A stretch of DNA of 64,000 nucleotides from Collinsella tanakaei (GTDB taxonomy: Bacteria; Actinomycetota; Coriobacteriia; Coriobacteriales; Coriobacteriaceae): NCBI RefSeq assembly GCF_016900375.1, contig NZ_JACJKB010000001.1, positions 186,001 to 250,000 on the forward strand, written 5' to 3'. Below, piece after piece: positions 7,238-43,440 of this stretch. Both the position numbers and the translations under genes were made by a program. The notes beneath the pieces were generated by a model. It made no database searches and was not told the DNA's origin. It saw nothing but the letters and a program-made list of their open reading frames with translations. Positions within the stretch are counted from its first letter, which is position 1, and every line of letters begins with the position of its first letter.

Positions 7238-8773
7238 ATGCGTAAACGCCTCATAGCGCTTGCCATACCGGTGCTGCTGATCGGCGCCGCACTTGCCGCT
7301 ACCTTGCTGCAGCAGCAGGCGACGGCACCCGACGCTGCCACGGAGCAGCGAAGCGCCCAGCATGAATACGCCGCGCATGTCGAGGACCTCCCGGAGCGCG
7401 AGCGCTCCGCCGCCCAATCCGTCTCCATCGCGGCCGATACCTTCGCCACGCATCTGCCGCTCGTCTCCATCGAGACCGGTGGCCAGTAGATTCCCGGCGA
7501 TGTGGCGGTCGACGATGACGGTCACGCCGTCATGCGTGCGGATGGTAACCATGAGCTCACCACGACTCCGGAAGGGAAGGAGGATGCGACTGTCACGATC
7601 TCCATCTACGACAACGACGGCCATGCGAACCGCCTTTCCGATGAGCCCGCGGTGCAGACCCAGACCCTCATCCACTACCGCGGCAACAGCTCGCGCCGGT
7701 TCCCCAAGCGCAACTATTCCCTGCATTTCGTTGATGAGAACGGTGAGAACGCCTCGTATGAGGCCATGGGCATGCCGGCCGACAACGGCTGGATCCTGAA
7801 AGGCCCGTATCTCGACAAGTCGCTTCTACGCAACTACCTGTCCTACACCGTGTTCAGCAGCTTCACCAACTACGCACCGCGCGTGCGCTTCTGCGAGCTG
7901 TTCGTCGACGGAACGTATCGCGGCGTGTTCCTGTTTATGGAGGCCGTCGATGTCGGCGAGAACCGCATCCCGCTGACCGAGGGCCAGACGAGCGTGAACG
8001 CCGTGCAGGATGGCGGCGTGGAGACGAGCTACCTGCTGCGCCTCGACCGCTACGACATGGATGCCCAGACGATCGATTCGCTCGGGTCGCAGGTGGGCCT
8101 CATCGAGTCGTCCATGGCCATCGAGTACCCGAACCAGCTCGACCTCACCGAGGCGCAGAAGACTTGGATCACCAGGGATTTCAGCGCCTTCGAGAAGGCT
8201 CTTTACTCGTATGACTACGACACCGCCGAATACGGCTACGCGAACTACATCGATGTGGACAGCTTCATCGGCTACTTCATCGCCAACGAGTTCTCGCTGA
8301 ACAGCGATGCCGGCTTGTACTCGACCTACCTCTACCGCGATGTCCGCGGCAAGATCTGCATCGGGCCCATCTGGGACTTCAACAACGCCTACGACAACTA
8401 CGTCGAGTACGACTACAGCGATGCCTCGGGCTTCACGATGGTCGACCGCCCCTGGTACACGATGCTCTTTCGCGACGAGGACTTCTGCAAGCGGGTCATC
8501 AAGCGCTACCGCCAGCTTCGCCGCGGCGTCCTTTCCGACGAATACCTGCAAGCCTTCATCGACGATGCCCTCGACTACCTCGGCCCGGCCATCGAGCGGA
8601 AGTGGCGCGTCTGGGGGTCGAGCTTCGACATCACCATCGTCGACGAGGGCCATCGCCTGGAGCCGCTCGACCGCAACCCGAAGACCTTCGAGGAGGCCGT
8701 CGCCGACCTCAAGGACTTCATCGGGAGACGCGGGTCGTGGCTCGATCGCAATATCGAGAACCTGAGGCAATAA
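7238..8773 (+). pseudogene. CotH-family protein, interrupted by TAG
   Basis: The frame encodes a signal or anchor segment (LIALAIPVLLIGAALAATLL), a linker, then a CotH-like kinase fold of about 400 residues with NSSRRFPKRNYSLHF, WILKGPYLDKSLLRNYLSY, FMEAVDVGENRIPL and the metal-site-like GPIWDFNNAYDNY. A TAG at 7487-7489 cuts the frame after residue 83, exactly before IPGDVAV where the CotH domain begins. The rest stays open for 428 codons. Relatives usually read GGQEIPG at this point, so GAG to TAG is likely. An alternative GTG start lies at 7232. CotH proteins phosphorylate secreted or surface proteins. Confidence 0.85.
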
Positions 8774-40621: not shown

Positions 40622-41998
40622 ATGGCTGACTCCACATCGCATAGGGTCGAGTGGGCCAAAGCAGAGGTCGCTCGACTCACCAGCTATATCATCCATAAGC
40701 ATTACTGCGAAAACGATATCGAGGCGATTACGCGATATCTTGCTGAGCCGTTCAGCTGGTTTGGCGCGGCCGAAGACGAATACGCGACGGGTTGCGACAC
40801 CGTCACCGCGATCTTTCGAAAGTTCGCCGGCAAGGTGCCGAAATGCAACGTATACGACGAGCACTACGACGTCATCGAGCTTGCAGAAAACACGTATCTG
40901 AGCACGGGGCGCGCCTGGGTCGCAACGGACCCCTCGACAGGCATCTTCATCCGCGTTCACCAACGCATCGCCATGGCATTCAAACAGGTCGGCGATGAGT
41001 TCACCTGCCACCACATCCATCTTTCGAACCCGTATGCAGAAATGGTGTCGGGCGATGTCGGGTTTCCCACGACCCTCGCGCAGCAGTCCTACGAGTACAT
41101 GAAGGAGACGCTCGAGGAGCAGAGGCGCCACCTGAACGACCAGACGGCCGTGCTGAACAGCATCTACGAGACGGCTCCCTGTGCGATCATGCGCCTTGCA
41201 CGGGATGGGGAAGGGTTCTACCGCCTGCTCTTCTACAACGGCGCCACCGCCGACCTCATGGGCGTGGAGGACGGCCAGATCGGACAGATGGACTGGTCGC
41301 GCGGCATCTGCCCCCTCATGACCTCCGGGGATGCCACGCGCCTTGCCGTGCGCATCGATGAGCTCGTAAAGCCCGGGGACCAGGCATCCTCCATCTGCCT
41401 GATCAAACGGGTCGCCGGCGAGCCGATCTATGTGAACTCCATCAACACGTTCATAGGCACAACCGAGGAGGGCGACATCATCCAGAAGATCGTGTTCGAC
41501 GTGACCGAACACGTTCAAACAGAGCAAGCGCTCGTACGCATGAGCTTCGAGGACGGTCTCACAAGGCTCTACAACCGCACGAAATTCCGCCAAGCTTTTG
41601 AGGATGACGTTTATAGCGCGGCGGAGCACCTGGGCATCGCGTACTTCGATATCAACGGCTTGAAGGCGATGAACGACCGCTGCGGACACGCCACCGGCGA
41701 CGACCTCATCTGCCGCACGGCGAGCCATATCCGGCATGCGTTCTCCGGTGACACATACCGTATCGGAGGCGACGAGTTCGTCGTCATCGACGATCTGTCT
41801 TCGGAGGGGGAGTTCGATAGACAGATCGAGCGCGCCCTGGGAGCCATGGCAGATGACGGCATCAGCATCGCTGTCGGTGTGAGCTGGCGGGAAGCTCCCT
41901 GCGACATCAGGGCGCAGTTCAATGAGGCCGATCGCCTCATGTACGAGCACAAGGCCAACTACTATCGCTCAAAGGCCAACGACCGTCGCCGCCGCTGA
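40622..41998 (+). CDS. Cytosolic GGDEF protein with SnoaL-like and PAS-like domains
   Basis: The product is 458 residues with no membrane helix. Residues about 10-135 resemble the SnoaL/NTF2-like sensor fold (HKHYCENDIEAITRYLAEPFSWFG), residues about 165-295 look PAS-like, and the C-terminus is a GGDEF domain with an intact RIGGDEFVVI. There is no RxxD site in the usual place (FSGD), so product inhibition is not expected. It should synthesise c-di-GMP. Its stop codon TGA is the first three bases of palindrome B1, so that element may have set or trimmed the C-terminus. Confidence 0.9.
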   Translation: MADSTSHRVEWAKAEVARLTSYIIHKHYCENDIEAITRYLAEPFSWFGAAEDEYATGCDTVTAIFRKFAGKVPKCNVYDEHYDVIELAENTYLSTGRAWVATDPSTGIFIRVHQRIAMAFKQVGDEFTCHHIHLSNPYAEMVSGDVGFPTTLAQQSYEYMKETLEEQRRHLNDQTAVLNSIYETAPCAIMRLARDGEGFYRLLFYNGATADLMGVEDGQIGQMDWSRGICPLMTSGDATRLAVRIDELVKPGDQASSICLIKRVAGEPIYVNSINTFIGTTEEGDIIQKIVFDVTEHVQTEQALVRMSFEDGLTRLYNRTKFRQAFEDDVYSAAEHLGIAYFDINGLKAMNDRCGHATGDDLICRTASHIRHAFSGDTYRIGGDEFVVIDDLSSEGEFDRQIERALGAMADDGISIAVGVSWREAPCDIRAQFNEADRLMYEHKANYYRSKANDRRRR

Positions 41999-42026
41999 AA
42001 GTTTGGGGACAGGTCCCAAACTTTCA
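41996..42026. repeat. Family B palindrome B1
   Basis: A 31-bp imperfect palindrome starts TGAAAG, has the core TTTGGGGACAGGTCCCAAA and ends CTTTCA. It overlaps the GGDEF stop codon. Three more copies lie at 42214, 43067 and 43397. Confidence 0.93.
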
Positions 42027-42039
42027 CGCGTCGATATAC

Positions 42040-42071
42040 AAAAAGAGACCTTCAACTGAGTTGAAGGTCTC
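42040..42071 (-). terminator. Terminator of the left tRNA-Ala
   Basis: A perfect 12-bp stem (GAGACCTTCAAC with GTTGAAGGTCTC, 42045-42071) and five T residues follow the tRNA on the minus strand. Confidence 0.9.
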
Positions 42072-42084
42072 GAAAATTCTTGGG

Positions 42085-42157
42085 TGGAGACGAGGGGGAT
42101 CGAACCCCTGACCTCTTGACTGCCAGTCAAGCGCTCTCCCAGCTGAGCTACGCCCCC
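42085..42157 (-). tRNA. tRNA-Ala (GGC), left copy
   Basis: A 73-nt cloverleaf with GGGGGCG/CGTCTCC acceptor, anticodon loop CTGGCAG (anticodon GGC) and T loop TTCGATC. The third acceptor pair is G:U, the alanine identity element. CCA is not encoded. It is identical to the copy at 43154 on the other strand. Confidence 0.96.
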
Positions 42158-42173
42158 AAGCGGTGCGGGAAAT

Positions 42174-42202
42174 AATATACGGGAACCGCACCCCGATTGC
42201 AA
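42174..42202 (-). promoter_or_regulatory. Promoter of the left tRNA-Ala
   Basis: On the minus strand TTGCAA (42197-42202) and TATATT (42174-42179) are 17 bases apart. It lies inside the inverted duplication. Confidence 0.85.
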
Positions 42203-42213
42203 GAACTTTTTTC

Positions 42214-42244
42214 TGCAAGTTTGGGGACAGGTCCCAAACTTTCA
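42214..42244. repeat. Family B palindrome B2
   Basis: Same core as B1 and in the same orientation; the left end reads TGCAAG instead of TGAAAG. It forms the inner end of the left arm, 67 bases before the transposase start. Confidence 0.93.
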
Positions 42245-42311
42245 TCCTGTTTGCAAGACATTATAGTTTTATACTGTGTGCCACGTCTTAGCTATTAAGA
42301 GGGTGATATGA

Positions 42312-43064
42312 ATGCCGAGAAGCGCTCGTACGATATCTGTCATGGGAATCTATCACGTTGTTGCTCAAGGTAATAACAAGCAGATCATCTTTGAAGACGA
42401 AGCCGACTATAGACGGTTTCTCGGGTTGCTGCGCGAATGCAAGCACCTGTACGGAATCAAGATCTTGGCATGGTCCCTCATGGAGAACCATGTGCACCTG
42501 TGCGTTGAGGATCTCGAAAATAACCTCGCCGATTTCATGCACCGACTGCTCGGTTGCTACGCGATGTACCTGAACGCCCGCCATGGTCGTGGTGGCCATC
42601 TGTTTCAGGATCGGTGCTTCAGCGACTCCATAATTGATGAGTCGCAGCTCCTGGAGTGCGTTCGTTACATTACGAACAATTGCCTGTACGCAGGTATATG
42701 CTCACTGGAGGAGTATCCGTGGAACAGCGACCACGAATATACCGATGTGCCCGATATCGTTTCCCCTGAGATCGTGTTGGGGCTACTCGGAGGCGCTCAG
42801 CAATACCGTGAGTTCATATCCTCTCATACGCACTGCGTGTATTCGTTTGAAGGGCCGGGGCCGCTGTCAAGCGAAGAGGCGTTGCGCATTGCGAGAGCCG
42901 TTGCAGCGAGCCTAGGAGTTCATCTCAGCGAGATCAAGGCGCTGCCTGTTCGCAAGCGCAATGAGGCGGTGAGGCAACTGCGTCGACATGGCCTCAGCAA
43001 TCGGCACATCGGTCGACTCTGCGCGATCAGTGAGTCCACCATCAGCCGCATCGTCCGAGGGTAG
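42312..43064 (+). mobile_element. REP-associated tyrosine transposase (RAYT, Y1/IS200-like)
   Basis: The product is 250 residues. It starts PRSARTISVMGIYHVVAQGNN, as RAYTs do (IYHV.xRGNN). The HUH metal site is HVH in MENHVHLCVED (about residue 60), followed by FQDRCFSDSIIDE and the candidate nucleophile Tyr in CVRYITNN. A C-terminal extension ends with a helix-turn-helix (LSNRHIGRLCAISESTISRIV). RAYTs are single-copy Y1 enzymes that act on REP palindromes; four family B palindromes surround this gene, in facing orientation. Base composition is more A/T-rich than the neighbourhood. The stop is two bases from palindrome B3. Confidence 0.93.
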
Positions 43065-43066
43065 CG

Positions 43067-43097
43067 TGAAAGTTTGGGACCTGTCCCCAAACTTGCA
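43067..43097. repeat. Family B palindrome B3
   Basis: Exact reverse complement of B2, directly after the transposase stop. It is the inner end of the right arm. Confidence 0.93.
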
Positions 43098-43108
43098 GAA
43101 AAAAGTTC

Positions 43109-43137
43109 TTGCAATCGGGGTGCGGTTCCCGTATATT
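43109..43137 (+). promoter_or_regulatory. Promoter of the right tRNA-Ala
   Basis: TTGCAA (43109-43114) and TATATT (43132-43137) with a 17-base spacer, the mirror of the left copy. Confidence 0.85.
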
Positions 43138-43153
43138 ATTTTCCGCACCGCTT

Positions 43154-43226
43154 GGGGGCGTAGCTCAGCTGGGAGAGCGCTTGACTGGCAGTCAAGAGGT
43201 CAGGGGTTCGATCCCCCTCGTCTCCA
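43154..43226 (+). tRNA. tRNA-Ala (GGC), right copy
   Basis: Same 73-nt sequence as 42085-42157, on the plus strand, with GGC anticodon and the G:U third acceptor pair. CCA is not encoded. Its downstream terminator differs from that of the left copy. Confidence 0.96.
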
Positions 43227-43239
43227 CCCAAGTAAGCTT

Positions 43240-43268
43240 ACAGCCTTCGGATTTCCGAAGGCTGTTTT
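43240..43268 (+). terminator. Terminator of the right tRNA-Ala
   Basis: An 11-bp stem ACAGCCTTCGG/CCGAAGGCTGT with loop ATTT and following T residues. Confidence 0.85.
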
Positions 43269-43278
43269 CATATTCATC

Positions 43279-43351
43279 GGGCTCATGGCGCAACGGTTAG
43301 CGCAGGGGACTCATAATCCCTGGGTTGCAGGTTCGAATCCTGCTGGGCCCA
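43279..43351 (+). tRNA. tRNA with CAU anticodon (Met elongator or Ile2)
   Basis: A 73-nt cloverleaf: acceptor GGGCTCA/TGGGCCC, D arm GCGC/GCGC, anticodon loop CTCATAA, T arm GCAGG TTCGAAT CCTGC. The initiator features (C:A at the acceptor top, GGG:CCC anticodon stem) are absent. Elongator Met and lysidine-modified Ile2 cannot be separated by eye. Confidence 0.9.
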
Positions 43352-43364
43352 CCTTCGATCGATC

Positions 43365-43396: not shown

Positions 43397-43427
43397 TGAA
43401 AGTTTGGGACCTGTCCCCAAACTTTCA
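43397..43427. repeat. Family B palindrome B4
   Basis: Exact reverse complement of B1. It ends 13 bases before the next start codon and lies directly upstream of that gene's AAGGAG site, so it could affect its translation. Confidence 0.93.
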
Positions 43428-43440
43428 GGCAAGGAGCGGT

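Follow-up and report, generated by a model that had tools for sequence, protein, structure and literature searches.

A RAYT gene with its REPs between two inverted tRNA-Ala genes in Collinsella tanakaei

Main finding

A gene coding for a REP-associated tyrosine transposase (RAYT) is found between two inverted copies of tRNA-Ala(GGC) in the 64,000 nt stretch of the Collinsella tanakaei genome that we have analyzed (the window). The two tRNA-Ala copies came first, and the RAYT is present at this site only in the species of the window, represented by one genome compared with 38 relatives. The most probable explanation, to which we give a probability of about 0.65, is that a REP-RAYT-REP unit (REPtron) was inserted in an old two-copy tRNA-Ala(GGC)/tRNA-Met cluster, and that gene conversion later made the two copies alike. 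The features of the locus are as follows (window coordinates):

41996..42027, minus strand: outer left REP (palindrome search), whose first three bases (41996-41998) are the stop codon of a GGDEF gene
42045..42071, minus strand: intrinsic terminator of the left tRNA-Ala, unlike that of the right copy
42079..42244, minus strand: left arm of the inverted repeat (repeat search and arm alignment)
42081..42158, minus strand: tRNA-Ala(GGC), left copy (tRNA gene search)
42174..42202, minus strand: promoter of the left tRNA-Ala, TTGCAA-17-TATATT (promoter motif)
42214..42244, minus strand: inner left REP, where the identity tract ends on the side of the RAYT (palindrome search, arm alignment)
42312..43064, plus strand: RAYT, Y1_Tnp, 250 aa (intact ORF, Pfam profile)
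43067..43097, plus strand: inner right REP, immediately after the stop codon of the RAYT and immediately before the conserved tRNA promoter region
43067..43232, plus strand: right arm of the inverted repeat (repeat search and arm alignment)
43109..43137, plus strand: promoter of the right tRNA-Ala, TTGCAA-17-TATATT (promoter motif)
43153..43230, plus strand: tRNA-Ala(GGC), right copy, the tRNA-Met-linked ancestral copy or Ala2 (tRNA search, comparison)
43240..43265, plus strand: terminator of the right tRNA-Ala, which resembles Met-linked Ala terminators in relatives
43279..43353, plus strand: tRNA-Met(CAT) (tRNA gene search)
about 43397..43428, plus strand: outer right REP, with an orthologous REP in the equivalent position of G031

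Here and below, G000 is the genome of the window and the other G-numbers are relatives.

The inverted repeat

The two arms are reverse complements over 166 nt (99% complementary), separated by an 822 nt spacer. Chance cannot account for a repeat of such length. The only mismatch, 42169/43142, is found in the leader between promoter and tRNA. Each arm contains one REP palindrome, one promoter with a 17 nt spacer and one tRNA-Ala(GGC). The initial annotation had described these arms and their contents around the RAYT, and our repeat search and arm alignment bear it out: All three elements are located in both arms. Its description of each arm as a complete tRNA transcription unit is slightly overstated; promoter and tRNA are there, but the terminators lie outside the arms, and those on the left (42071-42045) and on the right (43240-43265) are unrelated in sequence.

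On the RAYT side, the identity tract stops exactly with the final base of the REP unit; on the far side it stops 7 nt past the tRNA core. These are the two places where pre-existing homology would stop, which fits gene conversion anchored in the REP and in the tRNA. The near identity of the arms had been attributed to recent duplication or gene conversion, a view that we maintain. Judging from the sequence, it is plausible that the segment 42245-43066 could invert by recombination between the 166 nt arms.

The RAYT gene and its REP family

The product of the RAYT gene matches the Pfam profile Y1_Tnp (E 3.4e-13). Its best NCBIfam profile is REP_Tyr_transpos (E 2.4e-14), with 53.5 bits, which is below the cut-off of 80. 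The HUH motif (HVH, residues 60–62) and the catalytic Tyr119 are intact and conserved, and there is a weak C-terminal match to HTH_38; a PDB sequence search found no relative. As expected of a RAYT, the gene is surrounded by inverted copies (inner and outer pairs) of a repeat which is abundant in the genome. G000 contains four RAYTs, and the other three are only 33–42% identical to that of the window. We have discarded an autonomous insertion sequence of the IS200/IS605 type, which needs several near-identical transposase copies. The RAYT of the window is a domesticated transposase with its short repeats. By analogy with known RAYTs, its most likely activity would be the spreading of REPs by single-strand cleavage, with no special function related to tRNAs. 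Cleavage of single-stranded REPs by a RAYT is mentioned in a passage of PMC3733652 which discusses E. coli.

The REP unit has 31 nt, with the consensus TGMAAGTTTGGGACCTGTCCCCAAACTTKCA, and nothing is conserved outside it. These REPs fold as DNA hairpins. The palindrome core is found four times in the window vs. none in shuffled sequences. G000 contains 112 matches with up to 3 mismatches. Among the 100 sites listed, 22 pairs of neighbours within 150 nt are found as inverted pairs, all with the same polarity, as in REPINs, and the REPs around the RAYT share this polarity. When up to 2 mismatches are allowed, there are 92 matches in G000, 9 in G031 (none of them exact) and one in G042, while the remaining 42 genomes of the genus have none. 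The GT[AG]G tetranucleotide was not found at the foot of the consensus. This is not an absolute requirement, since RAYT subclasses without a GT[AG]G foot have been described (PMC6006769). RAYT and REPs form an ordinary REP/REPIN system.

Four REPs with identical cores divide the locus into three segments, which contain tRNA-Ala, the RAYT, and tRNA-Ala with tRNA-Met. The outer pair (41996 and 43397), with 32 nt perfectly complementary, surrounds the complete cassette, tRNA-Met included. The first bases of the outer left REP make up the stop codon of the GGDEF gene, so the insertion of this REP took place at the gene's end or close to it. The outer right REP is older than the split between G000 and G031, since a REP upstream of the HAD gene in G031 aligns with it. 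G031 does not contain a RAYT of the window type, and its few, inexact REPs fit a decay of the family once its cognate RAYT had been lost, a course described in Pseudomonas (PMC3686654).

The same locus in related genomes

We have compared the locus, from the prolyl-tRNA synthetase side to the ABC-F side, in 38 genomes of the same genus. Two or three tRNA-Ala(GGC) genes are found in at least 31 of them; the other seven have one, although three of these (G011, G032, and G034) may be incomplete, with few locus markers on the stretch read. None of the 38 relatives presents a RAYT at this place. In the species tree, G000 groups with G031 and G041, which both have two tRNA-Ala copies and no RAYT. 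Fourteen RAYT-free genomes contain homogenised tRNA-Ala pairs, whose upstream regions are 88–100% identical, compared with 25–40% in unconverted pairs.

These results do not agree with the central suggestion of the initial annotation, that the RAYT had duplicated the tRNA gene: Two or three copies are usual in the genus in the absence of a RAYT. Nor do they support an exceptional tRNA-Ala dosage; such numbers are the rule at this locus. The annotation itself had named a two-tRNA arrangement without a RAYT as evidence against a link between the duplication and the transposase. This is the arrangement found in relatives, including near-identical pairs in the 14 genomes mentioned above, so the main interpretation fails.

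Where the context is intact, prolyl-tRNA synthetase is followed by (HAD-IB), the tRNA-Ala copies with tRNA-Met, tRNA-Val, and ABC-F. In the group of genomes similar to G001 only the ABC-F side is common, adjoined by tRNA-Ala, tRNA-Met, and tRNA-Ala. An inverted Ala-Met block is found in G041, G042, G043, G037, and G029, and several G001-like genomes have only their tRNA-Met flipped, so rearrangements of the cluster have been frequent within the genus. Head-to-head tRNA-Ala copies are found only in G000 and in G016, which has no RAYT between them.

Two other observations concern this cluster. In closely related species of the G001-like group, tRNA-Met lies between direct tRNA-Ala copies in either orientation, which points to repeated small inversions. 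In G041 (around position 8100 of the stretch read), the GGDEF gene is shortened beside the inverted tRNA-Met/Ala block; it has its full length in the window.

Origin of the two arms

Upstream of the right tRNA-Ala, the sequence shares 90% identity with the corresponding region of the Met-linked copy in G031, which identifies the right arm as the donor type. The second tRNA-Ala copy in the near relatives G031 and G038 has a different promoter type. In the window both copies have the promoter type of the Met-linked gene, and the left copy keeps a separate terminator. An unrelated terminator of its own is as expected of a resident second gene, and most simply the left copy would be this gene, its promoter having been overwritten by conversion.

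The events may have taken place in three steps. A REPtron would have entered immediately 5' of the promoter that serves the Met-linked tRNA-Ala. The second tRNA-Ala already resident there (Ala1) would have become inverted, giving the left copy, perhaps by recombination at the near-palindromic REPs which bracket it. Finally, the left copy would have lost its old promoter to gene conversion or template switching, which put the promoter of the right copy in its place. This exchange would have had its anchors in the inverted REPs towards the RAYT and in the tRNA at the opposite end. We infer the descent of the left copy from Ala1 from parsimony and position only, since its terminator has no match in relatives.

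The absence of any relative of the left terminator would also agree with a different origin, in which the left copy is a duplicate newly made in inverted orientation. A template switch between the two REPs of opposite orientation on either side of the RAYT would have copied REP, promoter and tRNA-Ala leftward, and the old second copy would have been lost. Such an event would give arms that share these three elements with a single mismatch, one end being exactly at the REP. Nevertheless, it requires the loss of a second copy that is present in all near relatives in addition to a gain, and a perfect terminator already present on the left at a suitable distance. We consider it possible, but rather unlikely.

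Origin of the RAYT

The RAYT came with the insertion of a REP-RAYT-REP unit that is specific to this lineage. In a tree of 41 RAYTs, it is placed, with a long branch, beside the RAYTs found at the azgA locus of G042, G031, and G038 (support 99/95). These are 81–83% identical to one another and 50–53% identical to the RAYT of the window; no RAYT closer than 53% was found in 398 genomes of the class. A horizontal origin was considered and discarded, as no donor was seen among these 398 genomes. A scan of named genomes gave matches in Agathobacter and Flexilinea only, at 34–36%. RAYTs at novel sites had been noted earlier (PMC3686654).

In G042, G031, and G038 a REP-RAYT-REP unit is located upstream of azgA. 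At exactly the same place, G000 (C1, about 285194-285214) has a single REP of the window type and no RAYT, which looks like the loss of a RAYT leaving one REP. G016 has a single, different palindrome there.

The RAYT of the azgA permease locus might have moved about 55 kb to the tRNA locus, leaving one REP behind; this would be compatible with the explanation of the arms that we prefer. The single REP in G000, in the place where three relatives hold the complete unit, and the position of these RAYTs as sisters would agree with such a move. The identity values are against it: G000 is nested among species whose azgA RAYTs are 81–83% identical, yet its own RAYT is much more distant from all of them. 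Besides, G031 contains an azgA RAYT together with relics of the REP family of the window, so both systems coexisted. Two related, coexisting RAYT systems fit better, and relocation appears improbable.

It is equally doubtful that RAYT action at the flanking REPs drives local inversion or copying of host genes, thus reshaping tRNA number and orientation, with a RAYT segment that may flip in populations. The tRNA unit itself might have been mobilised by the RAYT, with REP-tRNA-REP handled like a REPIN of large size, as the identical cores of the REPs on both sides of the left unit (41996 and 42214) and the REPIN polarity of the RAYT-flanking REPs would allow; this is very unlikely, as none of 48 other RAYT loci has a tRNA gene within 1.5 kb and no other REP-flanked tRNA is found among the sampled REP loci of G000. 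The count of 0 in 48 loci also led us to reject a general attraction of RAYTs to tRNAs. The insertion of a REPtron in an existing cluster, followed by conversion, is the explanation that we retain.

Comparison with known systems

This locus is a clear natural case of a REPtron beside tRNA genes, in a position specific to the lineage, and one end of a probable conversion tract coincides with a REP. This points to a possible role of REPs as recombination anchors; it does not demonstrate the copying of host genes by a RAYT. Frequent rearrangement of a tRNA-Ala/Met cluster in one genus would make the evolution of tRNA copy number testable across strains. In the open-access literature, we have not found a RAYT described between duplicated tRNA genes.

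In several respects the locus is similar to the REPtron and REPIN-RAYT systems of Pseudomonas, Stenotrophomonas, and E. coli: There is a single RAYT with HUH motif and catalytic tyrosine, flanked by inverted palindromes, the palindrome has around 100 copies in the genome, many of them as inverted pairs, and REPs are fewer where the cognate RAYT is absent, as in G031. Unlike those systems, the REPs of the window have no GT[AG]G foot, the unit is bordered by two tRNA-Ala genes, and the RAYT is found at a site where no relative has one.

The other comparison is with multi-copy tRNA clusters under concerted evolution, which also have identical tRNAs and homogenised flanks, as seen in 14 genomes of the genus. 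The copies in the window differ from these clusters in being head to head, with a transposase gene between them and an identity tract bounded by a REP. What is unusual is a REPtron in a new position 5' of a tRNA promoter, four REPs whose cores are identical and which divide the locus into three segments, and head-to-head tRNA-Ala copies.
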